DNA of 64,000 bases, taken from the NCBI RefSeq assembly GCF_047663525.1, contig NC_092611.1, positions 5,865,001 to 5,929,000 on the forward strand, written 5' to 3'. A program made the position numbers and the translations under genes. The notes under the pieces are model-generated. The model was not told where the DNA came from. It made no database searches and saw only the letters and a program-made list of their open reading frames with translations. Source of the DNA: Anas platyrhynchos. Its lineage: Eukaryota > Chordata > Aves > Anseriformes > Anatidae. The first letter of the stretch is position 1. Each line of letters opens with the position of its first letter. This document shows positions 24,895 through 50,960 of the stretch, in pieces.

Positions 24895-24900
24895 TTTATT
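24895..24900 (-). terminator. Poly(A) signal of gene A
   Basis: On the minus strand this reads TCAATAAA, about 635 bases after the stop codon of gene A. The same TCAATAAA form closes genes B and C, which supports common descent of the 3' ends. Cleavage is expected 10-30 bases further on, near 24875. Confidence 0.75.
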
Positions 24901-25534
24901 GACTTTCAAACATAAAAATATACACAAAGCAATCAATTCGAGTAGCAAAACAAGAGCCCCTTGTTTACCAACCCTCCCACACAACACCCACTATTAACAT
25001 TATGCATTTGTAAACATCTAGTGTTTTTATAATGTATTTATTTAGTTTGATAGTACTAATGCACTTGCTTGGTCTGTCAGGCAGAGCAAGTTATTAAAAG
25101 CAGGGGAAAGGAAGGCAAATAGTGGTGGGAAGCACTAAGAAGATACAAATTTGTACACCGCACTTTTGGATAAGTTCAGAAAGCAAGCTATTAAAAGACA
25201 AGCCCCAGTGAGCAAGAAAGAAAGGCAAGCCAAACATCTCACAAGTTGCTTTCTAAGGGAACAGAGCCATTCAGTTTCCTGCTTCTACCCCATCCAGGTT
25301 GGAAGCCCTCTGTACTACACTCAGGCTTGTAAGACAGCCAGGACTATGCAGCAGACATCAAGGCTGAAGATGACAAAGATTTTCCTCCTATCAAATGCGA
25401 GTCAGAGTTTCCTTTTTATTAGTCTTTTTGTTGTTGTTTTGAGGATACCACTCAGGGCAATTAATAGTTCTTTCATAGTCCCCAGGAAGCCTCTCTCTTG
25501 CCAGGTTATTGCATTGGGCTTGACCTTAGCTTTT

Positions 25535-26116
25535 TTAAGCAGAGGACTTGAGTTTCTTCAGCCACCTGCAGAGAGGGCTTGGCTTGCACATCTTGCCACG
25601 TGGCCTCTTGCGTACCAAGTTGCCTTCTGCTGGTGCCTGGGCAGTCACCACATCTTTCACATCTCTAGCTCCTGTCTCTACAGCAGCCTGCAGATGCACG
25701 TCAGGTTTTGTTACTCCCACATCCCCTGAAGCTGGCTGAGGCATCGCAGCTCTTCCCTCAGCTGGAGCACACACTGTGTCTGGACTCACCATTGTAGCAG
25801 GCTTGGTTTCAGTCTCTTCTGTATAAGGCTGGATCTCACCAAGGTCTTGTAGCTCTGCGGTTTGCACTGCTATCTGTTCCACAGACTTCTGCAGGTATTC
25901 TAGAGATGACGCTATTTCATTTTCTATGTCTTCATTCTGTGTCCTTGTAGCATTATCTTGTGATTTCTCCTTTGGAAGACTGCTCTGCAGCACAGCCCCC
26001 AGAGCCTTCTGGGCAACAGGGAGATCACCTTCTGCATTTCCTTGCTCAGTTGCCTGCCTTTTAAAACTCTTGGACTTTCTACAGCAATACCTCTTGCAAC
26101 TGATTTTGTTTCCCAT
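25535..26116 (-). CDS. Gene A: predicted N-myristoylated basic/acidic protein, 193 aa
   Basis: A single-exon reading frame of 193 codons; I do not recognise the family. It starts MGNKISCKRYCCRK: Gly2 and Ser6 fit the MGxxxS myristoylation pattern, and Cys7, Cys11 and Cys12 within basic residues fit palmitoylation and membrane binding. This predicts an anchor on the cytoplasmic face of membranes. Residues about 62-92 (IENEIASSLEYLQKSVEQI) form a likely amphipathic helix; the middle is polar and probably disordered; the last 25 residues are strongly basic (RKRPRGK, RWLKKLK). I chose this start because a stop lies four codons upstream in frame and the ATG aligns with those of paralogues B-D. It is the lowest-coordinate member of a four-gene array on one strand, with a TATA promoter at 29.3 kb and a poly(A) signal at 24.9 kb. 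An upstream frame overlaps this start. Function is inferred only from the N-terminus. Confidence 0.8.
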   Translation of the reverse strand: MGNKISCKRYCCRKSKSFKRQATEQGNAEGDLPVAQKALGAVLQSSLPKEKSQDNATRTQNEDIENEIASSLEYLQKSVEQIAVQTAELQDLGEIQPYTEETETKPATMVSPDTVCAPAEGRAAMPQPASGDVGVTKPDVHLQAAVETGARDVKDVVTAQAPAEGNLVRKRPRGKMCKPSPLCRWLKKLKSSA

Positions 26117-26174
26117 GATCGAGATTTACAGCAATAATCCTGCTAGCAGCCTTCTCCAGCAAGCCTTTAGGATA
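26079..26174 (-). other. Gene A exon 2 start and overlapping upstream ORF (3' part)
   Basis: The acceptor TGCCCAAGTCTTTCAG precedes 26174, giving a 58-base leader before the gene A start. An ATG in exon 1 (29265-29263) would continue through the exon junction into this stretch in a different frame. It gives a 39-residue upstream ORF (MWGCFHLK then YPKGLLEKAASRII and on) that ends inside the main frame at 26079. The AGGC(T/C)TGCTGG stretch right after the acceptor resembles the one after gene D's acceptor. Confidence 0.5.
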
Positions 26175-29100
26175 CTGAAAGACTTGGGCATAAATAAAGC
26201 AAAGCCTAGAAGCAGACACAGAGCCCAACTTCTTCCTTGGTGCTAAGCTGACAGACCACTCCAGAGCCAATTATCCCACCTGTAATACAGTAAGAAATTC
26301 ATTAGGACCCACACCCTGTCCCTTTGTATCCCAAGTATCACCTTGGTTGAGTTTTCTAAGGAACATGTGATAAAGTTGAAAACTCGATGTGAAACCTCCC
26401 TCCAAGAAGAGAGATTTTGCCATGAAGCTTCAAACTGTAGGTTCATTCTCTTACCTGCAACTGGAACAAGAGCAACATGATTTGGGGATTTTCCTGTCCC
26501 TAAGCACAGTAACCATCTCATTTTTATTTTGACCAGGAAAGACCCCCTAAAGTGAAGTTCAGATTCACATCTTATTTCAGAGGGGGATGGACACAAATTG
26601 CAAGATTTACTGTTTAAGTCTGTCTTAGTTCAAGGGACAGTCTTTTTTGGTCTTTTGATATCAATAAGAGCACTTAGGAAGGAAGTCAGTTACTCACCAT
26701 GACTCTCAGCCAATACTGCACTTTGCAGCTATTAGTTTGTATTACCAAAGTAAATAGTATTTAGGTCTCCTCTTATTTCCTAGCCCATTTGTTAATTGTG
26801 GGAATAAATTCACATTCAGACAGGGTACTCCTATATAGGCTTGGTAGGATGTGGAAGGGAGGAAGAAGGAAAAGCAAAATGCCTCTTTGTTGAGAGATCA
26901 GAAATGGGTGGATTTCAGACCCTTTGGTAATTACATTCTCAGTCATTTACTCAGTTTCTAGAAAGCACAGAAGTGTCATCACTTCAAACTCAAGTCAGAA
27001 TCAGGACAGTACATTTCAAATGCAGAGAACATTTTACCTCGAGTTATGTTTGGAGAGTGTTGTTATAAAACCACAGGATCATTAGAAAATAGATTAAGTA
27101 CTTTGCAGAGAAAGATTTCAAAGGGAATTAATAGATGGAGTTGTATGTGGGTCCCTCTTTCCCTTTTCTGAAAGGTTTTCTTGTACTTTATCTTATGCAG
27201 ATTAGCCATAGTTGCTAGAAAGAAGTAAACACAATTTAAACTCATAATTCAGCAACAATAAAATTGCTGTTGCTGGCAGAGAAACTGCAAATGAAGCATT
27301 ATTTAAACCATTTCCAGCATCACAACTTCTCAGCCTTTATTTCTTACTCAGGTTGATAAGGTTTTGCTCTTAAGTAGGGTAGTTGGTGACACCAAGCCTT
27401 TTCCCCATAAGTCCCAGATCATTAATTCTCCTAAACTGCTGTTCCACTGCAAATCCAGTACCACTTCTTATAGCTAAATATTTAAAGCAAAATAGAGCCG
27501 CTGTGCAACATGATACGATTACTGATGGTTCGGCACAAAGTTTAGCCATCACAATGTAAAATAACAGGAACCACAGAAAAACAGATCTATAATTTAGGGA
27601 CTACAATTTTTAAATTGATGCTAATGGACCCAGAGCAGTTTTGATGCACCGTTTGAACTGTTTTTATGGATAGAATCTGCAGAAATGTGTGATTCCGTGC
27701 CAATTAGGCACTCACAAGACCGCATGAGCTTCAAACTACATAGCTGTAAGAAAGAAAAAGCAGGAAAGACCAACTCAGTCACTTTCATTGTGGAAGAAAA
27801 AAAAATCAGAAGACAAAGACATGCTATTTGATGCCAAGGCTAGAAAGAGGTCAACTTACAAATAAATTAGTGTTTTGTCAGGTTGACTGTTCAGAGTAGG
27901 CAATTGCTGTGGCAACAGCAATGATTTTGTGTAAATGAATATAGCAGGGAAATGTTTCATGTGATTTTGGAAGGGCAGCATAATGCTAGGAGAAGAAAGC
28001 AAAATAATAGTTTATTCTATGGTGTGTTTACATTTGTTATATGTTGCCATCACTACAGCAGCTCTTCAAAATCTGAGGATTGACAGATTCTTCTGCTGTT
28101 GTCTCAAGAGAGGTGTTATTTATAGAAGGGCATAAAGATATACTTATTATCGTAAATACAAATGCACCAGTCATTTTTTATATGTAGTAAAATTGTTTCC
28201 CCTTCCTGATCCAAATTTGGCCATTTCACGCTGCAAATGTTCATTCACTTTTCTAGTAGCCCCACACTCTTGCTGCCAATATTGGAACTGTTTAGTGGAG
28301 GTTCGGATGCCACCATAAGAACCATCCCTTTCACTAAAAGCAGGAGGTAGGCCCTCCTGAAACAAGGTGACAGGAGAAGCACCAAAGACCAGAAAACCTA
28401 TCAGAAGCGGCATGCATGTCCCTGAATTTCAAGGTGATCCCTGTCCAGAGCTCCAACTCTGACTAATGTGCATCCACCATGATGTGTGAATTAAGGGTAA
28501 ACAATGTCCCTAGACTCCCGCGGGTGCACTTGAGGTATTCTCAGATACCAGCAGGGCAGAATATGAGACTGCCACTGAGGATAAGAGCAGTTATTTATCC
28601 CTCTCTTGTACTGATTTGAAAAGCACAGATAGAAATCCATTTTTTGGCAAGTAATCAGAAAAGAAAAGCATTGTTTAAGGCATTATTTTCCTGCTGGTAC
28701 CCTGATAGCCAGTAGCTTCACTTCGATAGAAAATATACAGAATTATGTCTAGGACAGAGCCTCCATATTCACCACCTTATGTCACAGCTTTGACAAAATT
28801 CTAAAGCTCTAAAGTAAGATAAAAAAAACAATGAAAGCCAACAAGCCAGTAACAACCCACCTTAAGTCACTGAAGTAAGAAACCCACCCCAATACCTCAC
28901 ACATCAAAAGCTCTCTTCTGTATTTCTTAAGTTCTTATTTTTTTGTGTGTGTTTCCACAGACTAGGTGATCTTTAAAAGTCCCTTCCTTCCAACCTGAGC
29001 CATTTCATGATTTTACTACTCATCTAACACAAATTGGGATAATCTGTTTTAACATACACAAAGCTTAATGCATACTACTAGGATTTTGTTCTGAGAAGAG

Positions 29101-29241
29101 AGCATAACTACAGTTCTACCAATACATAAAGGCTGAACTCTACCTCACTAGAGCAGACGTATAATAATGAAATAAATAAAAAACTAAAAAAAAAAAAAAA
29201 CAACACCACCCAAACTTGAGTCTGCCAGCATCCTCACTCAC
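26175..29241 (-). other. Intron of gene A
   Basis: This interval of about 3.1 kb lies between the exon 1 donor (GAAG then GTGAGTG) and the exon 2 acceptor (TCTTTCAG). I see no gene in it. Its plus strand carries a short CR1 tail fragment near 28957-29016. Confidence 0.6.
28957..29016 (+). mobile_element. CR1 LINE, short 3'-end fragment
   Basis: The order AGGTGATCTTTAAAAGTCCC, then TTCCAACCTGAGCC and TTTCATGATTTTA matches the conserved 3' tail of avian CR1 (GATGATCTTTGAGGTCCCTTCCAACC, then CATTCTATGATTCT). About 60 bases remain, clearly diverged. It lies in antisense orientation inside the gene A intron. Confidence 0.7.
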
Positions 29242-29280
29242 CTTCAGATGAAAACACCCCCACATACAGCTATCAGCACA
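29242..29280 (-). other. Gene A exon 1 (mostly leader)
   Basis: A predicted first exon from about 30 bases after the TATA element to the donor (CTGAAG then GTGAGTG). It contains GTGGGGGTGTT, shared with exon 1 of gene D (CTGGGGGTGTG). It also has one ATG, at 29265, which opens the upstream ORF that overlaps the gene A start. The cap site is inferred from the TATA distance. Confidence 0.6.
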
Positions 29281-29301
29281 CAACTTGTAAGAGCAGGTGG
29301 G

Positions 29302-29342
29302 CCTTAAATAGGGCAGGGCAGCCACTCCAAATTACTTCCCTC
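29302..29342 (-). promoter_or_regulatory. Core promoter of gene A
   Basis: On the minus strand GAGGGAAGTAATTT lies 31 bases upstream of CTATTTAAGGCC, a TATA element. The block aligns without gaps with the promoters of genes B, C and D. The GGAA core could bind an ETS-family factor, which is inference. Confidence 0.75.
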
Positions 29343-32300
29343 CAGAACCTAATGATTGAATTATTGTTCCCTTATGCCAGCTCTGCTGCCTGAAAAGAAG
29401 AGGTGAGGAATTGTTTGCGTTCCATGTTTGTGAAACATCATATCATGTTCTTTGCTGGTTCAATTCATAAGCCTCTATGCATTTTGGATATCATCATCTT
29501 TTCTTCCTGAAATGTTTATACAAAACTGAAGAGAAATGTAATAGGGTATTTCTACCTGCAAATTGACAATAATAACCAGTATCGTAGACCAGCTACACAG
29601 TAGGCTTTAGGAAAAAAAGCTTGTAGCTTGGGTGTTATACTGTGGTTCTTAGGCACAATACATCTTCCTCACATAGAGGAACAGCAGATCTCAGCTGCTT
29701 TTCATCCGTTCCAAAGTGTTGCTGGCTGCTTGCATTGTGTGTCTGCAGCAAAGGAGGCAGAGCTGCTTGAGACTCTGTGATCATGTTTTCTCTGTCTGCA
29801 GAGTGCTTTCTCTCAGGAAGGTTGTTTTGACTGGCTTTTGTTTCTGAACTTGTTAAAATTTCCTGTCCTGTCGTCAAATCGCCTACAGGTTTTGTGGCTT
29901 GAAATCTGGACTTACATCTTACCAAGGGAGAGGTGCTCAAAGAAGCAAGGAAAACATTTTGTTGCCGAAGGCCAGGAAGGGATGCGCTTTTAAAGTTAAA
30001 AAAAATAATGTTTTGTATTGACAAATAATATTGACCAACAGCTGAAGCCTTGGTTAAGGGAATTGTTTGAGTTTTGACCAGCTGTTTTCAGAACACTTCA
30101 CTAAGTTGTGTAAGTACTTTAAACAGTTTAGGAGAAACAGATTTCGTGTGATTAAGATGCTGTTGACATTTTATGGATGCTTCAAAAGGAAAAGAAATAT
30201 ATATGGGAGCTCCTTACAGCATAAGTAGATAGCAGATGTTAGGCTCCTAAAAATGCCTGTTTTTTTTTACTTCTCTCAGGTGTGGCCAGGTTGTATCTTC
30301 AAATCTTCCTGCTGAATGACAGAAAGCCTTATTTGTGAAAGTTAAAGATTCTTAACATCAGGAGCTAGGATTTTCAGAAAGCCAAAAATTACATTACAGT
30401 GCGACACACTATCCACAAGACAGTTATGGGAATCGGTGATGCTCCTTTCATGCTTATTTGCAGTGATTCATAGTCAATTTACTAGTCAAAGAATTTGCTG
30501 CTTATCATCTTAAGAGGGCAGCCTAGAGCCTGGGAACAGAGCTGAGTTTTACTCACACTGCTACGTTATTAATAAATTCTCCAGTTTGAACTTGCCTAAA
30601 AAGATGAGACAAACAGCAGTAAAAGGTACAGCTTGCAGTCACTCATCAGTGACAATGAGGCAGAGTCGTGGTGGCTTAGAGATGTGCCATGCTAGGTGGT
30701 ACAATTGTTCTGCTCTTATGGAGTGGTCTGTCCTTTTTTTCTAAGGGTAGGAAAAGGATTTTAAAAGCATTAAAGTGTTCTCATGACTTAATTCCTATTC
30801 ATCTCACAAGAATCACATTTGAAAGTTTAGCCTTGTGTCTTTATCTTCAGCAGAGTTTGAATACAGTGAGCCCAGGAAGTGTTAAAGATCTGCAAAGAAA
30901 TCATCAGGAGACAAGTACCTTTCATTCTGGGGCCAGCAACATCAATATTCAGCATTTTACCCAAATACTTTACAAGATGAAAAGGGCAGAAACATTAGTT
31001 TTGACATTAGAGGCAATGCAGATATCAGAAATGACGTAGAGTCTCTTCTGGCATGGCATTAGAATTCTGACATACCTCTAAAGCCATTAGAATTACAGGA
31101 GCAAAATCCTCCCCGAGTGAAATTTTGAGTAGGTTAAACCAGGACAATGCAATTGCTAGTGTTTGAGAGTAAAGCTTAGCTTTCCAGTACTTGGGGGCAC
31201 ATCTTAAAAACCAAAAAGAGTATGATGAAGACTCAAGGAAGGAGGAGCTGTCGCTATTCTCATTTACCAAGGAATATCTTAGGAGCCATTTCTCAAGTTG
31301 GACACCTAGCCATTGGTCAACACTTTGCAAACATTCAGGTAGTTGTAAATGAAGACAGGATGTTGCCGAAACCTGTTTCCCAGAATTCATGCAGTAATAC
31401 ATTTCATGAAAGATTATTCCCTTCTGCCTGATTTTTTCTGAGAAAAGAAGAAAGGGCTACTCCATTTTCAGAGCAGGAACAGAATGATGATGGCTCAGAT
31501 TGCAGGTTCCTTTCCCAGATTTGCTCTCATTTTGCAATTTGATTTAAATACTAAGACTGAAGCAAAACTGAAATGAAGCATCTACCACAATTGTTCGTGC
31601 ATACTGGTGATCATTTAACAGCCCATGGTGTAAACTGACAAATTAACAGCTGTACAGCAGCCAGTCGGATGTAGGCTTAAATTTAGGAACAATGTTTGTG
31701 AAACTGTAGCCTGCGGTATTATTCTGTATGATAGCTTTTGGGGTGAAAATTGATCCCTGTCACCCATTTGTTTCAGTCTGTCATGTAATTATACATTTTA
31801 CTGTGACTCTAGATTAAACCAATACCTTCGGTCTCGGCTACATACTACCAACAGTCATAATGGGAATAAGAGTTGCTGAATCACTCTTATATGGCTCCCT
31901 GTTGAGTGAGATGCAAGCATTAATTAAATCGCAAGCATAAAATACAAAAACAAGTGATTTTGAAAATAAATGATTCTCCGATGCAAGAATGCAAACATCT
32001 ATTTTTTCCCAGAACCAGAGAGAGATCTTGGCTCTGGGTTCTCTGAAATGTTTGCCCAAGCCCAGTGATGGAAAGCCACTATCAGAATCCTACATTGCCA
32101 TTGCTTCCACGATCCTTTCCCTGGAATACATGCAAGCAAGCTTCCATCTACTTTGTGCCTTAATCTGTCCCTCATAATTTCTTCCTTTTTCCTGTTTAGC
32201 ACTTGTGCAGTGTAAGAAGAAAAGGTGTTCCTTTGTCTCTACTAAAGGTGTAATTCTCTTCTTGAGTATTTCGCTGCTTTCTGCATTTCTTTGTGCCACA

Positions 32301-33490
32301 TTGTCAAACATCCCCTCGGTTTTCTCAGCAACCGCAAAACAGCAGATGATAAATACTAACCTTTGAAAATACTTGGCAATTAATTATAGTGGCTGTTCTG
32401 AGTAACTAAGATACTGGCAGAACAGCGCACAGAAGCTTCTGTTGCTGTTTACTGGCTTTTTTTTTTTTCTTCAGTGGTTTCCTCAGGCCTCCTCGCTCTC
32501 CTGGTGTTGGTAAGGAGGAGCCTGCCTGCCCATCCACTGGCTGGTAAATCTAAATTGTAAGTAAGGAGGGCACACATTCTTCCAAACTAACATCAGCAGC
32601 AGTTTTTTTAGAAGCAACCAACCCAGGGCAGCTTGTCAACATAATCAACTGATGGAGATACTTTCAGGATTTTATATAAACAGCCGAGGGGGGTGAACGT
32701 GCTCTGTGTTAAGTGAGAGTAAAGAGACATTGCCATAAACAGCATCTCTATCCAGATTTGGTCAACAGGGAAAATTTGTTAAGGAAGGCTTAAACTGATA
32801 GGCTCACGAGGCACCAGCCTGGTCCCTTGCTTTAAGGAAATGTTTAAGGATACTCTATCTTCCTGATGTGATTAAGCTAATAAAGATAGTAAAACCAATC
32901 ATCCTTTAAATAGATGCATCGCTATCAAAATCCTCATATCCTCACTCGCCTTTATCTTTTTTTTTTCCTCCTGTGAAGACTGCTATTATAGGAAGTACAC
33001 AAGAACACAATAGCTGGAAATGGTTTCTTTAGGGAAGATTAATCTTACTCTCCTTTACATTGTAGTGCTCCAGCTCTCTGTCTAGTACAGGTTCACTTAT
33101 AATTCCCCTTGAGCTCTGGCAGAATAATTTCATGCAAACCCCTTTTTGGGGTGTGGAAACCAAGGGAAATAAATTAGGCTTTTTTTTTTTTTTTTTTTAC
33201 TAGTTCCCTTTAGCACTACATCATTTTTGAAGTTCAGGTTCAGTTGCCCAACTAACCAGGTTTGACAAGAAGCCTCTCCTTTAGGAGCTGTATAATTAGA
33301 GACAAGCAGAGTGTCTGCAGTAGCCTGATGTATTTATTACTTGCAGCAAAATGACCATCAGGAATGTCTCCTGGTGGTTATGCTCTGGAGATGACTACTT
33401 CCACAGGCCTCTTCTCCTAGTTTATTCAGCTCCATTCAACTAGCACAAGCCCTGGAGCAGCTGGCCATTAATAACACAGCAATTGATACC
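29343..33490. other. Intergenic stretch between genes A and B
   Basis: No gene recognised. A poly(T) run lies at about 33181-33199. The open frame at 29635-30024 on the minus strand (129 codons) has no promoter or splice context and no family signature. Confidence 0.5.
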
Positions 33491-33512
33491 AATCAGTGTT
33501 AAAATATGCCCC

Positions 33513-33975: not shown

Positions 33976-35121
33976 TCACTCCGCAGCAGACAAACCCTGA
34001 GTCTGCTCGGTGGTTTCTGCATCACATTTCAGGTGCTCTTTCAGCAGGTCTCTGCAGCAGGCTGGTTCTCCCCCATTGCTAGCTTTAATCATCTCCTTAT
34101 CCTGCAGAGCAGTCAGAGTTTCTGCCAGACAGCATGGGATCTCCTTTGATGTTTGCCCGTCATCACCAGCCTCAGCCATTTCTCCAGCTTGCTCTGACTC
34201 AGAAGCATTTTCTTCCAGATACTCAGTAATAACAACCTCTGTGTCTTGTTCCAGCTGGAGATCAGGTGGGGCTTTAGCAGCACAGCATGCTTTTTCTTCC
34301 ACTGTCTGCTTTTCTGCAGATCTCTGCATATTTGTGATGCCCCCTCTTGTCTCTGTGGTCTTCAGAGGCATCTCTGTCTCCCCCACGTTACACAACGCAG
34401 CTGGGGACTCCGCTGCCCTCTCCACAGGCACCTCCTCATGCATCTGTTCCTTACAAGTTTCTTCTGAAACACAAGTAACTGTGGCATCTTCTACTGCATG
34501 ATGCGGCTGCTCAGACTCCACTAGGGCAGGCTGATCTTTACTGGGTCCATCTTGTACTTCTGCACACACATGGACATCAGCCTTTACTGTAGTCTGTGTA
34601 GGAGATCTTGCTTTATGATCCTCACAGCTGAGTTGCTCACTGGGTTTACGGCCACCAGTAGGCTGCTCCACAGCTTGAGCTTCACTGATCTCTTGTAGAC
34701 TTCTCCTGGCAGAGTGGGCTTCTTGTTTCATCTGTTCAGCAGGCTCCTGATGTTGTGTCGCCTCTGTGCTAGGTTTGGCTTCAAGGTCCTGTGGCACCTC
34801 ACCATCTTGTGCATCTCTAGCAGAGACAGAGAGTGGGCCCTCAGTGTGCTGTGCATGCAGAGATGCAGCCGGATCTCCTGTGTCCCTTTGAGTTTGGGCA
34901 GCAGATTCACCTTCAGGAATATCTGATTCTGAAAGAGAAGGTTCAGGGCTTTCTGGGATCTTTCTTATACATGCCAAATGAAAATGGTTCTCTCCAGTCC
35001 ATGTTGAAGCATCGTGGGACATGTGTGCAGTTCCTGATGCCTTCTTTCCTTTGGCCTTACGAAAAACAACTTTCCTGGGAAACACACAGAGCCTCTTGTT
35101 CTTGCCAAAGATACCACCCAT
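33976..35121 (-). CDS. Gene B: predicted N-myristoylated acidic low-complexity protein, 381 aa
   Basis: An uninterrupted frame of 381 codons, far beyond chance length here; family not recognised. It starts MGGIFGKNKRLCVFPRK: Gly2 can be myristoylated, although position 6 is Gly rather than the preferred Ser. Residues 7-27 are strongly basic (KNKR, PRK, FRKAKGKK) with one cysteine at 12, a typical membrane-binding patch. The rest is rich in Glu, Gln, Ala, Ser and Thr with scattered Cys (KACCAAK, EIPCCLAE, EPACCRDLL), has no predicted domain or membrane span, and is probably disordered. The frame stays open slightly upstream of this ATG but holds no other ATG, so MGGIFG is the start, and it aligns with the starts of A, C and D. 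It sits between A and C on the same strand, with its own TATA promoter at 36.1 kb. A MARCKS/BASP1-like scaffold is an analogy only. Confidence 0.85.
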   Translation of the reverse strand: MGGIFGKNKRLCVFPRKVVFRKAKGKKASGTAHMSHDASTWTGENHFHLACIRKIPESPEPSLSESDIPEGESAAQTQRDTGDPAASLHAQHTEGPLSVSARDAQDGEVPQDLEAKPSTEATQHQEPAEQMKQEAHSARRSLQEISEAQAVEQPTGGRKPSEQLSCEDHKARSPTQTTVKADVHVCAEVQDGPSKDQPALVESEQPHHAVEDATVTCVSEETCKEQMHEEVPVERAAESPAALCNVGETEMPLKTTETRGGITNMQRSAEKQTVEEKACCAAKAPPDLQLEQDTEVVITEYLEENASESEQAGEMAEAGDDGQTSKEIPCCLAETLTALQDKEMIKASNGGEPACCRDLLKEHLKCDAETTEQTQGLSAAE

Positions 35122-36012: not shown

Positions 36013-36056
36013 CAACAAAACTCCACAACCTTCCCACTAAACACCCATCACCTACA
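36013..36056 (-). other. Gene B exon 1 (non-coding)
   Basis: A predicted first exon between the expected cap site and a consensus donor. It holds at most short upstream ORFs (MPLCCR and MGV). The start is inferred from the TATA distance. Confidence 0.6.
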
Positions 36057-36076
36057 ACACAAGGGCATCCGTCTGG

Positions 36077-36117
36077 CCTTAAATAGGAGGAGGTGGTCAC
36101 ACTCAATCTCTTCCCCC
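36077..36117 (-). promoter_or_regulatory. Core promoter of gene B
   Basis: GGGGGAAGAGATT lies 31 bases upstream of CTATTTAAGGCC on the minus strand. The TATA element and the following GGCC are identical to those of gene A, and the spacing matches all four paralogues. Confidence 0.75.
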
Positions 36118-39335: not shown

Positions 39336-39359
39336 GTTTTCACCATGATCTTAAAACAT

Positions 39360-40075: not shown

Positions 40076-41413
40076 TCAAGCTTCAGCATCTTCAGCCTCA
40101 ATCTCTCCCCCACTCCCAAACACTTCAGAACGCAGGGGTGCCACATTCAGAAACTCAGCTTCTTCCTTTACAGGCATCTGAGTGCAAGCCAGTGGTTCCT
40201 CTGGAAGCTGAGTTGTTGGTTGTGTGATCATCTCCTGTGGCTCTGCCTCACCTGCTAGAGTTTCTGGATCCCATTCCCTGATCTTCTCACTTTCCACCAG
40301 ATCACTGAGGCATATTTGATCTTTGTCACTTGACTGGCAGAGGACTTCACTCAGTTCATCAGACTCCACAGAACTCAGGCTCTGCATCTCCTGTGCAGTT
40401 AGCACAACTGACTGGCTGTCTTCCTGCAAGAGGTCAAGCAGCTGGTTCGCTGACTCTGGATATTCCCCTCTTGGATACAGAGCCTCCCAAAGCATTGCAG
40501 AAGTAGAGTGCATCTCAGCCATACCACTTACTATGTCTTCTGGAGGATCTTCCGTCTTCTTGGGCTCCTGTGTAACCTGGACACTCAGTAGAGGTTCTGT
40601 CTCTACAAGACACATGATCTCGTCACTCTCAGTGGATTGAGGGCTTCCTTCAGCAAGACTAGTCCTGTCCATCTCCTCCGTGTGCTCAGCAGGAGGGCAG
40701 GGCTCAGCCTCCTTTGTCATCTCCTGCACAGCATCCAGTGGCAAGTTCCTTCCTACAGGACTCTCAGCAGTCTCTGTGGGAGGCTTGATCTCGCAGTCTT
40801 GGCCAGCTGCCATTTCCCCTGTGATTTCCATGAGGTTGAAAATGTTTGTTTCCTGCAGAGTTCCTCCAGCATATGAGCCATCCTCACTGCCAGCCCCAGC
40901 CTGTTCATCAGGCTGTCCTATAAACTCAACAAACTTCACATCCTGAGGTGCATGCATAACCAGCTGGGCCTCAGAAGCCAGGGAAACGGGCTTTATTTTC
41001 TCTTCTGTGTTGCATGGTTTCTCTCTTTCTTGCTGGCTCTGTAATTGGGTTAAGACTGCAACCTCCCCTTCGGTCTCCCTATCCGCAGATGCCACCAAGA
41101 AATCCACAGAGCCCCAGGCTGCCTCACATTCCTCAGTCACTCCTGTGGGATCTGCAGGAGTACAGGTCTCTGTGCTCTGCTCTACAGCATCAGCAGACAG
41201 CTGTTGGTCCCAGCATGGTGACTGCACCTCTTCAGGGCCTTGGTCAGCAGCTTTCAGGGCTGGTGTGGAAGGCTGCTTCTCAATACATACTGATGGATCC
41301 CTTGAGGTCTGCAAAATTGGCTTGGTCTCACTGGTCTCTTCGTTTACTTCCTCTTCCTTCTTACATCTCCCACAAGTCCCACAGCAGATCTGCATGCTGA
41401 AATTGCTCCCCAT
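40076..41413 (-). CDS. Gene C: predicted N-myristoylated cysteine/acid-rich protein, 445 aa
   Basis: The longest coding frame in the window (445 codons from this ATG); family not recognised. It starts MGSNFSMQICCGTCGRCKK: Gly2 and Ser6 fit the MGxxxS pattern, and four cysteines at 10, 11, 14 and 17 are likely palmitoylation sites, though CC-x2-C-x2-C could also bind metal. From residue 20 on the protein is strongly acidic (many Glu and Asp) and probably disordered, with short hydrophobic patches such as QLLDLL (324-329), QSVVL and ICLSDLV between about 320 and 375 that could be short binding motifs. ETKP and a following Asp-rich/Cys segment near residue 30 loosely resemble gene A residues 104-116. 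The frame is open upstream, but a strong acceptor (TTTCTTGCAG) lies 18 bases before the ATG, so the upstream part is intron. It lies between B and D, same strand, own TATA promoter. Confidence 0.85.
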   Translation of the reverse strand: MGSNFSMQICCGTCGRCKKEEEVNEETSETKPILQTSRDPSVCIEKQPSTPALKAADQGPEEVQSPCWDQQLSADAVEQSTETCTPADPTGVTEECEAAWGSVDFLVASADRETEGEVAVLTQLQSQQEREKPCNTEEKIKPVSLASEAQLVMHAPQDVKFVEFIGQPDEQAGAGSEDGSYAGGTLQETNIFNLMEITGEMAAGQDCEIKPPTETAESPVGRNLPLDAVQEMTKEAEPCPPAEHTEEMDRTSLAEGSPQSTESDEIMCLVETEPLLSVQVTQEPKKTEDPPEDIVSGMAEMHSTSAMLWEALYPRGEYPESANQLLDLLQEDSQSVVLTAQEMQSLSSVESDELSEVLCQSSDKDQICLSDLVESEKIREWDPETLAGEAEPQEMITQPTTQLPEEPLACTQMPVKEEAEFLNVAPLRSEVFGSGGEIEAEDAEA

Positions 41414-41431: not shown

Positions 41432-42691
41432 CTGCAAGAAACAAGAACTGTTTATCTTAACTGTTTCACAACAGTGTTTTGTACACCAAAGGCTTGTTGG
41501 CTTAGCTCCTGCACTTGTACACATGCAGCAGAGAGACTGTAAGGCCCCACATAACAGGGCAGACCTCCCTTTACACCAGAAGCTGAACAGTTTCTGTATG
41601 CCAGAGGACATCTTCCTAGCACACTTCAGGTAAGTATCATTACAGGAGAAGTGACAAGTGTACCACTGAACAATCATAATGAACTTAGTGGTAAGAAATC
41701 TGCAGTACTAATGCAGTTCAAGTGCATCATTTCTCTGCTCTTAATCAAGGATTCCTAACAGCCAGCCAGGCACATTTATTAATTGCAAGGTGGCAGTCAA
41801 CACCAAGTACCACCTGGTGTTAATCCCACTGAGTAACACAGTTCAGATGCAGTTTGTTTGCAGCAGGAACTCCTTCAGCTTGAAGAAGGAAGCTGAGCTT
41901 GGACTTTCAGCTAGAGTACCAGTAAAGGGAAGATAACTAACCAAGGAAATAGTCTTTCAACCTCAAAGACTAACTTTGCATAGTTAGTCTTGCCAAAAGA
42001 TTTTTTTTTTCAGGCTGAAGCCACATGGGCTTGTTTTCTTTCCATGGCCATTGCAGAGGAAGTGTCAGACTGGGGGCTAACCAAGACAGCACAGCCACAC
42101 TGTAAGCCATTAGCATCTAGCACCAAGACCAATGTATTTCAGAGCACTGTTTTGCAGCTTCTTTAAGCAGGCATCCACCCATTCCACCAGAAGCATGGTA
42201 TCATATTTACAAGAACCATTAGAAAAATAAGAAACTGCAGAACATTAAGTTGAGCAAAGTACCCTCAAGCACTAAAAGGCTTCTGAAACACAAGCATATT
42301 TTTTGGCTTCCCACTGAAGCCAGACACATTTTTCTTGAAAAATCGAGTATTCCCAATAGTCACATGGTTTCTTCTAGGTTTCTGTATTTATACTTGTTTA
42401 GAAATAAAGTAAAAAATCAGACCAGGTAGTCTTTTCGATGCAGAAGTATAACCTCTAATTAGAAATTAAAGTAGTGAATATATTAGGAGCCTTAGCTTTC
42501 AATAATGCTTTAAGCCTTTGAAAATAAACGAACAAGAGACCTGCATACAACAATTTTAGGACCCATAGTTATCTACAAGCCACACAGGGCAATCTCAGTC
42601 TCTTCCAATTTCCTTGTTTCCCCAGTACACTTCTTCCAACAGCAGACACCATAATTAGCTTCTGTAAATCTATAGAGTTGGAAAAACTTAC
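41432..42691 (-). other. Intron of gene C
   Basis: This 1.26 kb interval lies between a GTAAGTTTTT donor and the TTTCTTGCAG acceptor. No other feature was seen in it. Confidence 0.6.
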
Positions 42692-42730
42692 CAGCCTACA
42701 ACAAATTAAAGCAACAAAAACCTCCCAGCT
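42692..42730 (-). other. Gene C exon 1 (non-coding)
   Basis: A predicted first exon ending GTAGGCTG at a consensus donor (GTAAGT). It contains no ATG. The cap site is inferred from the TATA distance. Confidence 0.6.
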
Positions 42731-42752
42731 GTCCTTTAGACCTCAAGCTCAA

Positions 42753-42792
42753 CTTATATAGTCCTGAGGGGCCCCACAAAACCGCTTCCCCC
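42753..42792 (-). promoter_or_regulatory. Core promoter of gene C
   Basis: GGGGGAAGCGGTT lies 31 bases upstream of CTATATAAG on the minus strand, the strongest TATA element of the four. It aligns without gaps with promoters A, B and D. Confidence 0.75.
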
Positions 42793-43477
42793 TGCTCCTT
42801 GGGCAGCGATTCCCTGAATATTTAGTTCCTTTCCATTCTCATTCCCTTCTGGGAACAGCTGTTATGGCTACCTCCTTTATTTTACAGCTGAAGGTGTTTT
42901 ATTGGCAATTCTGTGGTTTTTATCAGAGGGTAAAGTAAAAATAAAATGCAGCTTCTGTTTATTGCAAATGAGCGATCACTGGCAGTGTGCTGTAACAACA
43001 CTCTGTCGTAAAGCAGGAGAGGAAGAGGCAGACTTGAGTGGTTTTCCAAGAGCAGACTGTCAGGCAGCTTGGGCTTTGCCTCAGCTCCATCTGCCCTGCC
43101 TTCTTCGGAGAGGGTGAGTTAGCAGGCTTGCTGGCTTTGCTGCAGGGGAAATGGGGTTGGGCATCCTTTAGGCTGGTCTTCTCACTTGCATCAGTAGTAG
43201 ACTCAGAAATATCAGTACAAAGGTGATGTCTGTACAAAATGGAAGGGCCAGCTCTTTTGAATAACAGAAACAGACACAGGAGTGGTGGGAGTCCTCGTTA
43301 TACTCAAGACCCAGCACGTGATGTGGGAGGAATATATATATATTTTTTTTTCTGGTAGTTTTCCTAAAGAGGTCTGTGTGTTTTGTGACTCCACTAGTTG
43401 TGAGAGCAGACACATGTAAGTCATTTGAGGACTTCTCTTCACCTCAGTGCTCAGAAAGTTTGAAATTAGGGGCATTA

Positions 43478-43735
43478 GAATCATAGAACCATAGAATATA
43501 CTGAGTTAGAAGGGACCCATAAGGATCATTGAGTCCAACTCCTTAGTCTGTGCATGACCACACAAAAATCAGGCCATGTGTCTGAGAGCATTGTCCAAAT
43601 GCTTCTTGAACTCCAGCAGCTTGATGCCATGACCACCGCCCTTGGGGAGCCCATTTCAGTACCCAACCATGCTCTTGGTTAAGAACCTTTTCCTGATATC
43701 CAGTCTGAACCTCCCGTCACAGCTCCATGCATTTT
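43478..43735 (-). mobile_element. CR1 LINE, 3'-end fragment
   Basis: The plus strand starts AATCATAGAACCATAGAATA, the reverse complement of the CR1 terminal octamer repeats. It continues with the conserved blocks GGGACC..AAGGATCATTGAGTCCAAC, GCTTCTTGAACTCCAGCAGC and TTCCTGATATCCAGTCTGAA. About 255 bases of 5'-truncated CR1 remain on the minus strand. The terminal repeat is intact, as is usual for this family. Divergence from my memory of the consensus is moderate. Confidence 0.93.
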
Positions 43736-44166
43736 TGCTGCATTTTCAAAGTCAGCTTGGAACCTTCCCTAAGACAAAACAAAAACCCAGAAGCAAAACC
43801 AAAAAAGAAAACCACAGAAAGATCAAATCTGTGTCTTTAGTATTAGTCACATCCTTGGAGAACCTAGCTGAATAGCATATCTTCAGTAAGTGGGCAGAGG
43901 GCACTCCTGAGGCTTGTGTATTACTCTTCCTAACATACTTCCATGGTTTTTTAGTTCATTTGTGTGTTGAAGAATATAAACACCCCAGGAGTGAACCTGA
44001 TCAGTCTCTGAAAAGTACAGAGTTGCTTCTTTTTCTTCCTCCTTGTTTCTCAGAACAGCCTCTCTTTTCTGGGTTTATCCGACTGTCATTCAAACTATTA
44101 TAGATTTCCTTAGCATGGGCAGAAATTCTGCCTCCTCTCATAACGTATTTTTTTCTACCTCCATAG

Positions 44167-44225
44167 GGAGACACTGATGCCATTTCTGAAGGAGCAGGCA
44201 TTACTCGGGTCACAGTCAGCCCCAG
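44167..44225 (+). other. Exon-like segment, unassigned
   Basis: 59 bases lie between a good acceptor (TTTTTTTCTACCTCCATAG) and a donor (CCCCAG then GTATGG). Two frames are open, one reading GDTDAISEGAGITRVTVSP. No family or partner exon is recognised, and the strand is opposite to genes C and D. Confidence 0.25.
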
Positions 44226-45655
44226 GTATGGAATATTACTGTTACTGCTTTGATAATTTAAGTGAAGTCAGTATGTTGATGTATTTATGCTACACATCCC
44301 GCAAACACTGAATAGCAACTAAAATAATGGAAATAAAAGGTGGCTTTCTATTTATGGCTCATCGTCAACCTCAAGAGAACTGGTGCATATTAATTAAATA
44401 AAGAAGCTAAGATTTTTCAGAAGTTTGACAATTTCTAATTATTTTAGTTTTTACTGCCTCTAAGGGAACCCTTAGTCTCCTTTCAATAATTTTCTCATGA
44501 CCTTTACCACCTGTAAGCATGACAGTAGGTGTTTGGCCCAGTCTCTTAGCACAACCTGCTTCATCAGGCCCAGTCTGAAAAAATACTGTCATAATTGTGT
44601 GAACAAGCTACAAAATCTGAGATAAAAGCCTGTTCTCCTTAGTTGCCTTCAGAGGGGTAAGTCACCTTGCAAAAACATCACCAATTGCAGCACATGCCTG
44701 GTGATGACAGCTTACATCTTTCCCCACCTGACACAAGCTGTGCTATTGGCTGAGTGTTTGATATGTAGTTTGCTTATCTAATACAAAATAGGAACAAAAC
44801 ACTTTTTTACTGTGCTGTTTCAATATGAGCTACAGTTAAGATTGAGCAGCAATATAAGTATGTGTATAACTAAAACAGCATGACAGCACTTTTATTACAC
44901 CGCTGGGGAGAAAAAAAAAAAAGTCTTTTGGGCTAGAGATACCACCTATCTGGAAGGGAGTATTAGCTGTCACAGGCAGAGGACAAGTATACACGGGGAA
45001 AGCTAAATAACATTGTACTCAAATGTAAAAACTAGTCTAAAACATTAGATTCTGATAAAGCTAGGGCAACTAGCTAAAGCACTGATGTCATTTGACCTGG
45101 AAGTTAGGGCAAACACTTTGCTTGTGAACAGAAACATCAATGGGACACATACTGCATGACTGAGAAATATGCAGGTGTGTATGCATGAAGTATGGTTACA
45201 CATCTAGTAACCTGAAAATAGGCCTGTCTTGTAACACATGTGCAAAGATACACAGCTGTCCGAGTTTCATCAAAGTGTTTTTATTTCCTTGCTGACTGCT
45301 GAATACCATAGAATTTTCCACATACACTTCATTTACTTCCACAGCACATTGGGCATCTGTTATTTTTCAGGGCAAAAGTATGCCAGGCTTTGTGTTCCTA
45401 CAAAAAGAACAAGGTTTAAGGCTCACTCTGATCACACTGGACTGTATCTGAGTGTTCTCTTCAGTTCCACAGCACACCTTGCTCATGCTCTTCCTCAGGC
45501 AGGGGTGGTCCCAGTGCTCAATTTCACATTTCTTTGCTCCCTGCAGCATCCTGGACTTGTGTTCTCCTCAGCCTGTCAGAAGTTCATCTTCACTTTGGTT
45601 TTAAAAGTAGTCTCATTCACATAGGAGACAGCTTAGTGCAGTAATCAATACAGTT

Positions 45656-45670
45656 TATTTTTTATTTTAT
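45656..45670 (-). terminator. Poly(A) signals, candidate 3' end of gene D
   Basis: On the minus strand AATAAAATAAAAAATAAA contains several overlapping AATAAA-type signals. It is the first such cluster downstream of the gene D stop, but lies 3.3 kb away, against 0.46-0.71 kb in the paralogues. Assignment to gene D is therefore uncertain. Confidence 0.4.
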
Positions 45671-48600
45671 TTACACAAAATATCAGATGTCTCAGAAGAC
45701 AAAAATCTTCCGGATGTGATAATTGTTCCCAATGCTTTCAGCATCACAACAGCAACATACCTAGATGGTGAATCAACTATACAAATATTTTAAGTGCACT
45801 AATATAGGAGACAGATTCTTAGCTGAGGTAGAGTAGCTTCTGAAGAAATCAAGAATATTTTCACCCACAGATGAAGAAAATTTCATTAACATCCACACAC
45901 CTGAAAAAGCAGAAATTGACTGGGGAAGGGGAAAGGGCAGAAAAATTGGTCAAAATTTATATTGTTTCACTCAAGCCACTGATCTGGAGATGGAAGAATG
46001 GAGTTAAATACATCAGGCTTAAATAAGCAAGTCATCCATTTCATAGAATCACAAAGGAAATTGTATGCAGATTCCCCATGGGGTATGCAAAGCATTCCAA
46101 TGGTCACAGAATGCCTTACATTTATGTCTAGAGACTTAAAACCATAGTATTGAGATCCCTGATTTAATGTGAAAGATTATGTACTTCTACAAGTTAATGG
46201 GCTGTTACACAAGACTGGAGAGCATAAGTACTTTTGAAATAAAGCATGGACTTCCCCCTTGCAGGGTAAATACCAGCACAAGAGCTCACCAACAATAATA
46301 CATCAAAATTACTTTAACATGCTTTGACAACTTATTTTGACAGGTGCTTAATTACAGCAATATATCACAAGGCATTACATTCCCCCTTCATTGCTTTGTG
46401 AGCAAGTGGCACAGGAACATAGCCCATACCTATCAAAAAGAGCAACTCCACCATATCATCTAACAGTTAAACACAAAGCAGTTAAGTCTTACATTGTTCG
46501 GTATTTCAGCACACACCAAGACAGGCTCCAAACCCCATGTCCCACTTCTCCTTGTGTCCCTAAACATTAGTTCCATTAAGTCAGTTCCTCCTCACACCGT
46601 TCCCTATTCTATCACATGCAAGGTGTTACTTAATGCCGTTTTAAAATGTTTTTAGATCTGTATGCTTGTAACATTTTAAATAACATTGGTTGACAAAGTA
46701 CACTAGAACAGTTAAAATTAGACTTCTTGTTTATCGTCTTTCTTTCCTTAGCCTTTGTGGATTTTTTGCATTTACAGTATTGGCAAGGTGTGCACACTTA
46801 CTGTCTGATACAGACTGTTACACTTTCCTTGCAAAAGTTGAATTGGTTTGGCAGACCAACTTCAAGGGAATGCACGTGTCAGAGCCTTCCCAGCCCCTCA
46901 CTGCTCAGAGGGCTGCAGAAATCCAGCTGAACCCTTTGGCCAGCTGGGGGACAAGGAGGCATATGGCCCAAGTCACTGGCTGAACAGAATTTAGCCTCTT
47001 CGACTTCTGACAAAGCCTGTCAAAATTCAAGCCTACTGCCACCTGCAGGAGATCTGCTCCCCCAGCACATTGTGGCTGCAGACCAGTTTTGGTGTCTCCA
47101 CACCTGGTCACCCACCAGTGCGCTGCAGCAGAACCCCCTGCCGTGGGCATAGTGAAGGCAGTGCGTCAGCAGAGTATCAGCTCCCAATTCCCACACCTTT
47201 GGTACACATGTACTGAATGTAGTGTGATAACCAATATTCCAGAGCCTTCCAAATAAATGAAGGTAGTTCGTTAACTGCAATGCAAGGCCCACTGCTAACC
47301 TAGACCCACTCTTGTCCTGTCTACCCAGCATGGACTTAGCACTTGAGCTCTCTATTCACACCCTAACAGGGAACAAGATTCCATATTTTATATCAAGTGT
47401 AGCTCACATCAACCCTGTTCTCACTCTTCTTTAATGACTAAGAGTGTCTCCAGATGTTTCTCACTTGAGACTGATCCAGGAACTAATAAGGCACACTGTC
47501 TGGAGTACTGTCCCTAGTCATACCATCCATATTCCTCATTCTGACAATAGGCACTGGAAGAGGAACATTCCATACAGGCTGAAGAAAGAGCTGAATGTGG
47601 CTTTAACTCAGATACCTTGAGCATCAGATGCTGTGAAGCCTAAATTAGAAGAAAAAGCAGCAGAAGGGGCCAAACTGTGTAGAGCAATGCCATGGGTGGA
47701 AGATGGTTTTGTTCCAGGAACCTTAAAGCACATCCTCCACTTAAATAAGTACTGGACTGAGCAAAAACAGGGCTAGCAAAAAGATCAAACAGCTTGAGAC
47801 AACAGTATGGTAAGTAAAAGATTAAAAAATAATGAAGCTGCTTTCAACCCAAGTGAAACTTCAGAGGAGAGCACACATGTTTAGAAATGCTTTGAAGAAT
47901 CGTGTTGCATACATCTCAGTTTCCTTTTTAAGGGAGAATTTCAAAACATCAGTGTGACAACCTCAATTAGAAAGCAAGGCCTCTTTTCACCTTATTACAG
48001 CTCGGGCCAAGAACTTCGTTGTTCAGTCACTACAAACTCCAACCACAGTAACTGCAGGAGAGCTACATTGCCTCAGCTGTTAGCCTGGTGTTTTCCCAGC
48101 ACAATGAGGCCCCTGAAGTCTAGTTAAAACATGAGAGAAAAAAATTACTTTGGTACTAATTGGATGACAGACAGGTGCAGAACACTCACGTTACAGAATG
48201 CCCACTACAGAGCTCAGATTTCTTCAGGTCCTGCATTTGTCTTCATTATACTGACTCTATCCATAGCTTTCAAACAACTTCATTTACATTAAAGTTGCAA
48301 GATCTCTAGAATCATCTAAGTGTCTTCAGCCAAGTCTCAGTAGTACAGGTCTTGACACATTAAGGAACTTCACTGATGCTTTGAAATATTGCACAGAAAG
48401 TATTCATTTTAAACTCAGTCATGTCTTCAGATTATAACAGACAGCTTCTAACACTGATAAAATTTCCCAGAAGGTAGAGTTACTCTTGTAAATACACAGA
48501 CTGGCCCAAGTCAGTCCAGTTAAGATGCACATCTACCAGGAAGAGGCATCTCTAGCCATTATTGATCATTCAGTACAGCCAAAATACATCAGCAAGGCCA

Positions 48601-48944
48601 TTACCAAAGACATGAACGCCAGCTATTGTCCATTAGGTATTCATTCTTCACCATACAGAAGGACAACATGCTTCTAAGGAAAAAAAAAAATCAACCTGTT
48701 AGACACCAAAGAATACTTCAGTTGCTGTAAGGCCCCCCCCTTTGAAAAATCAGAAAGGATGTTAAACAAGCATACTGAGAGACTGTGATATAATCCCCAT
48801 CTTCAGTCTGCAGGGATGGGAAGCAGTTGAAGCAAGCCTCAGCCTTCCACACCTGCATGGCCTGTAATGGAAACAGAGGACAAATACAGCCTGCATGTCT
48901 CAGGCTGACAGAACAGTTTTTACAGCACATGCTCTTGATCACTT
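45671..48944 (-). other. Candidate long 3' UTR of gene D, or intergenic
   Basis: No further coding frame or AATAAA signal was seen between the gene D stop and 45670. If transcribed it would be a 3.3 kb UTR. It may hold decayed remains of a longer original reading frame. A pyrimidine-rich acceptor-like site on the minus strand (CTCTGTTTCCATTACAG) lies near 48864. Confidence 0.35.
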
Positions 48945-49139
48945 TTACAATCTTTTTCTTGCATCTGCAGAAGCCTGAAAATCCTTACAAGTTCCCTTAG
49001 CCGGCTCTTTGGCTGTACCCTGGAAGTCCTCAGGCTTGTAAGGATGTGTTGAAGCTGTGTCTGGAACTTGATCCACCTTCTTGGCAACTGGCTTTGTGTA
49101 AACCACACTGAAGGGCTCCTTACTGAGATTATCTCCCAT
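48945..49139 (-). CDS. Gene D: short predicted N-myristoylated paralogue, 64 aa
   Basis: A 64-codon frame starting MGDNLSKEPFSVVYTKPVAKK and ending DARKRL. Gly2 and Ser6 fit the MGxxxS myristoylation pattern; unlike A-C it has no early cysteine, and its basic residues (TKPVAKK, then KEPAK and ARKRL) are spread over the whole length. No domain is visible. The frame is open upstream to the acceptor at 49235 but with no ATG, and joined to exon 1 it meets a stop, so MGDNLS is the start. Promoter, exon 1, donor, acceptor and leader all match the family, so the locus is a true paralogue, but its product is only a sixth to a third the length of the others. It could be a shortened functional member, a decaying copy, or a gene with further exons I cannot place. 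It is the first copy in the direction of transcription. Confidence 0.55.
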   Translation of the reverse strand: MGDNLSKEPFSVVYTKPVAKKVDQVPDTASTHPYKPEDFQGTAKEPAKGTCKDFQASADARKRL

Positions 49140-49234
49140 GTTCACAGGTATGCCTTCCAGTGAAGTTTTAAGTGATGTACGTCTCCTGCCCAACAGTGGG
49201 AATCTTCTTGCTGCTACCAGAGCACCCAGCAGGC
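49140..49234 (-). other. Gene D exon 2 leader
   Basis: The acceptor CTAGTCTTCTACAG is followed by GCCTGCTGGG, close to AGGCTTGCTGG after the gene A acceptor. The leader is 95 bases long. It is open in the frame of the CDS (GLLGALVAARRFPLLGRRR) but has no ATG. Confidence 0.55.
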
Positions 49235-50834
49235 CTGTAGAAGACTAGTTATAAATTACATTAATTGCTTTTACAAGTGTTAGCTATTCCACCTTAGTTT
49301 TTCCATTCCTAAAAACATTTCTCTTGTGAAGCAAGCTAAGACAGACTGCAAGTTAATTCAGTACCTCACCTGAAGTGGTGCCACTCATCAAAACAAAAAG
49401 TTTCACATTAAAACAAGAAGATACTTCAAGATTTCATATATAACCCAGAAAGTAAAGATAGCAGGGGGAGCAGCAAGACCAAATTTTTGAAAGATTCTAA
49501 GTGAGAAGAGCAACTCTTTATTCTTAATAGCTACAAGTCACTATTTCAGTAGAAGAACCCATATTTTTAATGCAGAGATCTAACATAATCATTATTTTTG
49601 ACTCCCTTTCAAGTTTCAAGGATCTTGGTGTTGCTCTAAGCCCCACACAGCTTCTCACTCACTGTCCCCCAGCGGCAGGGAGGGGTGAAACAGCATAGGA
49701 GCAAGAAAATTCACAGGCTTAGATATAAACGGTTTAATAGGTAAAGCAAAAGCTGCATGCACAAAGCAAAATAAAGAATCCATTCACTACTTCCCACCAG
49801 CAGGCAGTGATTAGCCATTTCCAGGAAAGCAGGGCTTCATCATACCTAACAGCTACTTGGGAAGCCCAGTGCCTAACTCCAAGTGTCCTCCCTTTTTCCT
49901 TCCCCCAGCATTTACTGCTGAGCACAGCTTGCTCCCATGGGGAATATTCCTTTGGTCAGGTTGGTTCAGCTGTCCAGGCTGTCCTCTTCCTACTTGTGCA
50001 CCCCCAGCCTACTCACTAGCAGAGCAGCAAGAGAAACAGGAAAAAACCTTGACACTGTGTAAGCAGTGTTCAACACTAACTAAAACAGTGTTATCAGTGC
50101 TGTCACAAATCCAAAACATAGCACCAGAGCTACTATGAAGCAAATTAACTCTATTTTAGCCTAAGCCATTGAAGTATGGAAGAATTTATGAAGAAATACT
50201 TTACTATGAGGGTGGTGATGCCCCATCCCTGGAAGTGTTCAAGCCAGGCTGGATGGGGCTTTGGGCAGCCTGGGTTGGTGGGAGGTCTCCCTGCCCATGA
50301 CAGGGGGTTGGAATTAAATGATCTTTAAGGTCCCTTCCAACACAAACCAGTCCATAATTCTATTACTGTCATGCAAAAGATTTCTAGTATAGAGCTGTTA
50401 GCAAGTCCATAAAAATAGTTTCTGGGGAAACGAGAATGTGTCTTTAAGGTTAGTGTTTAAAGTTAGCTTTCTGAGCACAGTTATTTGGGTTTTATTCTGG
50501 TATCTCACCCAAATAGTTCTGTGCAATTTGTAGCAAGTTATAGCAAATAGAGGAGAATGTATTGCCATTCATTTTAAACCCACAAATGATGTACCTACAG
50601 GAACACAGCATATTTCAACTTCCACACTCTCCTCTTTCTAATTTACTAGCAAAGTTGCATCAGCAAGTTATATATCACTGCCCAAAGTCTGCCCCGTAAA
50701 TAGAGCTCCAAGCTGTTTCCCAGCCATCATGTTTTGTTACCAAACAAAATAACACAACCTTATCATAAGGCACTACTGAGCAATAATTAGTAAGACTTGG
50801 TGCCCAGAGCAGAAAGACATTAAAGAACACTTAC
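49235..50834 (-). other. Intron of gene D
   Basis: This 1.6 kb interval has a consensus donor (GTCAG then GTAAGTG). It contains an antisense CR1 fragment at 50181-50372. Confidence 0.55.
50181..50372 (+). mobile_element. CR1 LINE, 3'-end fragment
   Basis: The blocks GAAATACTTTACTATGAGGG, TGGTGATGCCCCATCCCTGG, GTGTTCAAGCCAGGCTGGATG, GCTTTGGGCAGCCTGGGTTG and GATCTTTAAGGTCCCTTCCAAC appear in the order of the avian CR1 3' end, on the plus strand. It is about 190 bases long, 5'-truncated and moderately diverged, inside the gene D intron in antisense. Confidence 0.93.
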
Positions 50835-50898
50835 CTGACTGTCAGCTAGCCAGCAAAAAGTTGCTGTAAACCTGCAACAGGCAGCACACCCCCAGCTG
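50835..50898 (-). other. Gene D exon 1 (non-coding)
   Basis: A predicted first exon with no ATG, ending CTGACAGTCAG at a consensus donor. It shares a CTGGGGGTGTG block with exon 1 of gene A. The cap site is inferred from the TATA distance. Confidence 0.6.
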
Positions 50899-50920
50899 TG
50901 AGCACTACAGGTTGGCTGGT

Positions 50921-50960
50921 CTTATGTAGGATGGAGGAGTTGCACAGAATCATTTCCCCA
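50921..50960 (-). promoter_or_regulatory. Core promoter of gene D
   Basis: TGGGGAAATGATT lies 31 bases upstream of CTACATAAGACCAG on the minus strand. The TATA element is the weakest of the four (CTACATAAG), but the block aligns without gaps with A-C, and CTCCTCC between the two boxes matches gene B. Confidence 0.65.

Follow-up and report, generated by a model that had tools for sequence, protein, structure and literature searches.

We describe four minus-strand genes, A to D, arranged in tandem in a 64,000-nucleotide stretch of the Anas platyrhynchos genome (hereafter the window; positions 5,865,001-5,929,000 of a 10.1-Mb contig, in an assembly of 1.26 Gb in 42 contigs). They look like a real, unnamed and fast-changing gene family, located in an interval that annotation has left blank and that is flanked by B3GAT1 and a SIK gene, probably SIK2, both of them well known. 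Each unit comprises a TATA box, a short exon 1, a strong splice donor, an intron and one coding exon that begins with Met-Gly, and all of these elements were located where a preliminary description of the window had placed them. The promoter block upstream of the TATA box is homologous in A to D, and three of the four genes are clearly coding. On balance, we lean towards the reading that A to D are tandem paralogues of old origin whose products are disordered cytoplasmic proteins with an acyl anchor. These would work in the manner of BASP1, MARCKS and GAP43, a likeness that implies no kinship with these proteins.

For this analysis, 120 kb were added on each side of the window and 304 kb were read in all, while null models and counts of frames and ATGs were taken over 264 kb around the locus.

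A conserved promoter block precedes each of the four genes

The TATA boxes of A to D lie on one strand at intervals of 6,775 (A-B), 6,675 (B-C) and 8,168 bases (C-D). A 38-base promoter block is present in all four units, with a GGGAA element that begins exactly 30 bases before the TATA box. Over the 45 bases upstream of the TATA box, the units share 20 (A-B), 22 (A-C), 24 (A-D), 22 (B-C), 21 (B-D) and 27 (C-D) identical positions. By comparison, 496 pairs formed from 32 other TATA-like sites in the 264 kb shared 11.9 positions on average (standard deviation 2.8, maximum 20), so that five of the six pairs exceed the null maximum and A-B equals it. Farther upstream (positions 46-100), pairs share 12-20 of 55 bases, and downstream (positions 9-60) they share 12-23 of 52, which is mostly at chance level. 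The control region that the preliminary description had called conserved is thus borne out as a compact block.

No further copy of this block was found without mismatch in the whole 1.26-Gb genome, where a pattern built from the four promoters returned only A to D at 0 mismatches. Allowing up to 2 mismatches added 2 sites, both at 2, and the reversed control found 3. In the 264 kb, a matrix derived from the same promoters scored A to D at 51.5-53.7 and the next best site at 14.2. Furthermore, a TATA box followed by a donor 30-110 bases on occurs at seven sites in this region, four of which are A to D.

The distance from the start of the TATA box to the donor is 69 bases in A, 73 in B, 69 in C and 94 in D. 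The predicted first exon had been called non-coding, which agrees with the lack of an ATG in C and D. For A and B this status is uncertain because each carries one upstream ATG if transcription begins about 30 bases past the TATA box. The Met-Gly codon is the first ATG past a plausible acceptor in all four units and lies in a strong Kozak context (A or G at -3, G at +4). In gene A, this position requires the acceptor at 26164 or 26174, as the one at 26279 leaves an upstream ATG; the choice of acceptor is ambiguous in A and likewise in B. The signal TCAATAAA lies close behind A, B and C, as first described, with none near D (Table 1).

Table 1. Features of genes A to D in window coordinates. 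Transcription start sites (TSS, about 30 bases past the TATA box) are inferred; a slash marks the exon-intron boundary at each donor.
Feature	Positions	Strand	Details
Gene A proximal promoter	29303..29340	-	TATTTAAG at 29303-29310; GGGAA begins 30 bases before
Gene A predicted exon 1	29242..29280	-	donor GAAG/GTGAGT; one upstream ATG; TSS inferred
Gene A coding exon	25535..26116	-	193 amino acids; starts MGNKISCKRYCC (MGNKIS); acceptor 26164, 26174 or 26279
Gene A TCAATAAA	24895..24902	-	635 bases past stop; other AATAAA at 25420, 25042
Gene B proximal promoter	36078..36115	-	TATTTAAG at 36078-36085
Gene B predicted exon 1	36013..36055	-	donor TTG/GTAAGA; one 3-codon upstream frame; TSS inferred
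Gene B coding exon	33976..35121	-	381 amino acids; starts MGGIFGKNKRLC (MGGIFG); acceptor 35240 (by eye), 35199 or 35195
Gene B TCAATAAA	33513..33520	-	458 bases past stop
Gene C proximal promoter	42753..42790	-	TATATAAG at 42753-42760
Gene C predicted exon 1	42692..42730	-	donor CTG/GTAAGT; without ATG; TSS inferred
Gene C coding exon	40076..41413	-	445 amino acids; starts MGSNFSMQICCGTCGRC (MGSNFS); acceptor 41431
Gene C TCAATAAA	39360..39367	-	711 bases past stop
Gene D proximal promoter	50921..50958	-	TACATAAG at 50921-50928
Gene D predicted exon 1	50835..50898	-	donor CAG/GTAAGT; without ATG; TSS inferred
Gene D coding exon	48945..49139	-	64 amino acids; starts MGDNLSKEPFSVV (MGDNLS); acceptor 49234

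Across the window, TCAATAAA has six copies on the minus strand and one on the plus strand.

Frame length and codon preference indicate coding sequence

The coding character of B and C is evident from length, as their frames (381 and 445 codons) are both longer than any chance frame in simulated sequence of 264 kb, where 30 runs of one model reached at most 259 and 30 runs of a second model at most 280. The 193 codons of gene A are not beyond chance by the same measure (median simulated maximum 190 and 204 in 264 kb), and its coding character is evident from codon preference. When 295 open frames of at least 100 codons in the 264 kb were ranked by codon-preference margin, A came 1st (0.24), C 2nd (0.23, computed over its whole 543-codon open frame) and B 15th (0.12), with the 3' exon of the neighboring SIK gene 6th (0.17). 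Moreover, the in-frame codon score was 0.20 for A, 0.23 for C, 0.21 for B and 0.22 for the SIK exon, as against 0.05-0.10 in three unidentified frames. Codon preference was also positive for gene D (0.222 vs at most 0.037 in its other frames), the frame being short.

Two further minus-strand frames were considered as extra genes and rejected because codon preference was weak in the portions that were scored. The first (29638-30087, 150 codons) ends just upstream of the gene A promoter and appears protein-like by eye, and the second (42962-43297, 112 codons) lies just upstream of the gene C promoter.

The predicted proteins combine putative lipid anchors with dissimilar tails

The starts of A, B and C fit a PS00008-type myristoylation pattern, which 74 of 8,800 ATGs in the 264 kb also fit. 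Glycine follows the initiator methionine at 458 of the same ATGs, and Met-Gly begins 339 of 4,369 human clones in PMC4550359, where two programs predicted 90 of the 339 as positive. If the local ATG rate is applied, four Gly2 starts would arise by chance with a probability of about 7e-6, and with the human clone rate (PMC4550359) the figure is about 4e-5, values that overstate the surprise because the loci may first have been picked partly by their Met-Gly starts. Cysteines lie near the start of A (C7, C11 and C12) and C (C10, C11, C14 and C17). The net charge of the first 30 residues is +6 in A, +10 in B (polybasic), -3 in C and 0 in D, and that of the whole proteins is +3, -33, -70 and +2, respectively, with a Glu content of 14% in B and 16% in C.

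The start regions of A and C are homologous. The DNA shared across their start codons was equaled in 0 of 500 rough shuffles, and MGNKIS...CC aligns with MGSNFS...CC. The sequence ATGGGxxxxAAxxTCAGY is common to A, C and D.

The tails differ, as first described, in sequence as in length. Past residue 30, none of the six pairs shows convincing similarity (p from 0.045 for C-D to 0.877 in six uncorrected tests), B and C share no body similarity, and unit-to-unit blastn revealed no body homology (best E 0.069). Disorder-promoting residues make up 61, 62, 59 and 58% of A, B, C and D, respectively, figures that reflect composition only and were read without control proteins. The Uversky charge-hydropathy plot places B, C and D among disordered proteins. 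Internal repeats in A and C are inside the range of 60 shuffles, and in B just above all 60 (41 vs 40).

Matches to unrelated families, which the preliminary description had named as grounds for abandoning a single family, were sought, and neither Pfam (E<=0.1), nor PDB (queried with A, B and C), nor the same genome (E<=1, the genes themselves aside) yielded any. At weaker levels, Pfam returned no family for A, B or C at E<=1 and one sub-threshold match for D (MLVIN_C, E 0.13). PDB contained no match to B or C at E<=1 and one to A at E 0.3 (an oxidoreductase subunit). Besides the genes themselves, the genome contained five matches to A (E 1.31-7.07), one to C (E 3.07) and none to B or D. Among the papers listed by searches of the open-licence PubMed Central literature, none dealt with the cluster, its synteny or its proteins, and the genes may well be present in public bird annotation as unnamed predicted loci.

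A model of membrane-tethered proteins with free tails

In the model that we favor, each gene would be switched on from its small TATA promoter with the fixed upstream GGGAA element, a combination that suggests expression restricted to one tissue or cell state. A tiny exon 1 would be spliced to the single coding exon, and in the product the methionine would be removed and Gly2 myristoylated. The anchor could be secured by palmitate on the nearby cysteines in A and C, and by the polybasic patch in B. The remainder would form a long, flexible, disordered cytoplasmic tail held at the membrane, acidic in B and C, so that the proteins may serve as flexible scaffolds or bristles tethered to the membrane, like GAP43, MARCKS and BASP1. 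Selection would have preserved promoter, splice layout and anchor and left the tails to drift.

The acyl-anchored, disordered kind of protein is already known; what would be new here is its occurrence in a tandem family whose members keep a conserved head and vary freely in their tails. More tentatively, we propose as a possibility that the family is unnamed and restricted to sauropsids or birds, with a promoter and lipid-anchor module held over a very long time and an entirely different disordered tail in each copy, which would amount to anchor-first evolution of membrane scaffolds. If real, such a locus would be a natural experiment in the evolution of disordered membrane-tethered proteins, in which control region and anchor are fixed and tails are free, and it could help to explain a cell type or organ specific to the lineage.

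Several observations weigh against this model. The two-exon structures of A to D are themselves predictions from sequence, and the four top promoter matches are circular because pattern and matrix were derived from A to D, which leaves the absence of other matches as the informative result. Three unidentified frames have codon-preference margins (0.22, 0.21 and 0.18) near those of A and C. Met-Gly alone is weak evidence, and gene D, for which myristoylation had also been predicted, fails the PS00008-type pattern because its Asp at position 3 is excluded there. Gene D also has no near poly(A) signal, with the first ATTAAA at 1,513 and the first AATAAA at 3,277 bases; it may be a short member, truncated, or a gene with further exons. 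Conservation of the N-termini, claimed at first for all four, reached significance for A-C only, the other pairs giving 0.058 (C-D), 0.104 (A-D) and 0.2-0.4 (B with the others). Likewise, the tails had all been described as disordered, and A falls slightly on the ordered side of the Uversky boundary (0.016 vs 0.033). Finally, the tails match no domain, so that only their design speaks for a scaffold role.

PMC6478813 describes GAP43, MARCKS and BASP1 as unrelated in primary structure and as having acylation and cationic effector domains in common. A to D resemble them in an N-terminal acylation signal, a body of low order (acidic in B and C) and mutually unrelated sequences, and the polybasic start of gene B recalls their cationic effector regions (PMC6478813). 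In contrast, A, B and C have no Pfam match, a difference read from the Pfam result rather than from direct comparison, as bird BASP1 and MARCKS were not used as queries. Furthermore, a basic patch is absent from the first 30 residues of C, and the genes described here are four tandem copies with a common promoter.

Alternative readings of the cluster

The preliminary description knew of no named family with this layout, a statement that did not hold. PMC4245816 deals with the simple genes of the epidermal differentiation complex (EDC) of amniotes, termed SEDC genes, in which a non-coding exon 1 is followed by a single coding exon. The search for them there used a donor with a TATA box 60-90 nt before it. 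A to D share with them the TATA box, the short exon 1, the single intron and the single coding exon, and the TATA-to-donor distances given above follow the same rule except in D, which lies slightly outside it (PMC4245816). The layout is therefore not unprecedented. A to D could accordingly be imagined as an SEDC-like cornification cluster outside the EDC, active in keratinocytes of skin or feather, whose acidic, Cys-containing tails would serve as cross-linked cell-envelope material instead of cytoplasmic scaffolds. SEDC genes occur in tandem arrays, and fast divergence of tandem bodies is typical of them. However, the flanking genes identified among the frames listed for the 304 kb were B3GAT1 and the SIK-type gene and not S100A, in a screen by codon preference and eye that included no S100 query. 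Moreover, B and C are rich in Glu rather than in Gly, Ser, Cys or Gln, and a Met-Gly anchor is not known as an SEDC feature. We consider this reading unlikely and set A to D apart from SEDC genes by locus, anchor start and composition.

Somewhat more doubtful still is the possibility that the proteins are kinase-anchoring or signaling adaptors comparable to small acylated AKAPs or Src-family proteins. A short tail helix (about residues 68-97 in A and 310-360 in C) would then dock a partner. The putative dual-acylation starts resemble the N-termini of AKAP7, smAKAP and Src-type proteins, and gene A contains, by eye, one helix-like stretch, IENEIASSLEYLQKSVEQIAVQTAELQDL. However, an AKAP-RII pattern matches only residues 35-46 of A (AQKALGAVLQSS) and nothing in B, C or D; as it misses the helix-like stretch, an AKAP helix there was rejected.

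Least probable, in our view, is that the units encode no protein family and are regulatory or long non-coding RNA loci, or else decayed copies, in which promoters were duplicated and the frames that follow them arose by chance. Bodies that share nothing convincing, the near-chance length of A, and a gene D that is short, breaks the myristoylation motif and lies far from any poly(A) signal would fit, but C and B extend far beyond the simulated frames and the margins of A and C are the best of 295, above the SIK 3' exon.

Genomic context of the cluster

B3GAT1 lies on the minus strand at about -118 to -115 kb, left of the window, where part of one exon frame matched 3-beta-glucuronosyltransferase 1 chains in PDB (1.8e-74). 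To the right lies a SIK-type gene, also on the minus strand, whose 3' coding sequence ends at window coordinate 161,278; both genes fall within the span from -118 kb to +177 kb. Pieces of its kinase exons matched SIK3 chains best in PDB (5.1e-40). The gene is probably SIK2, to judge by its C-terminus, although the comparison run does not separate SIK2 from SIK3. Among the frames listed for the roughly 276 kb between the two genes, which on the right were those of the minus strand, no other known gene was recognized by codon preference and eye, no family search having been made. The window gave no match to RNA families at gathering scores.

In humans, the order on 11q is SIK2-PPP2R1B-ALG9. The nearest Glyco_transf_22 match on the duck contig, which we take to be ALG9, is 4.1 Mb from the locus; gene order therefore seems to differ from that in humans, and the human order was rejected as a guide to the locus. 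Human C11orf52, a multi-exon gene at 11q23.1 near SIK2 with ALG9 as a neighbor, starts with MGNRVCC, a myristoyl-plus-Cys start like those of A and C. Position lends no support to kinship with C11orf52 because the presumed ALG9 is so distant.

The introns of D (50230-50370) and A (about 28950-29020) contain fragments that by eye resemble the 3' end of a retroposon, presumably CR1.

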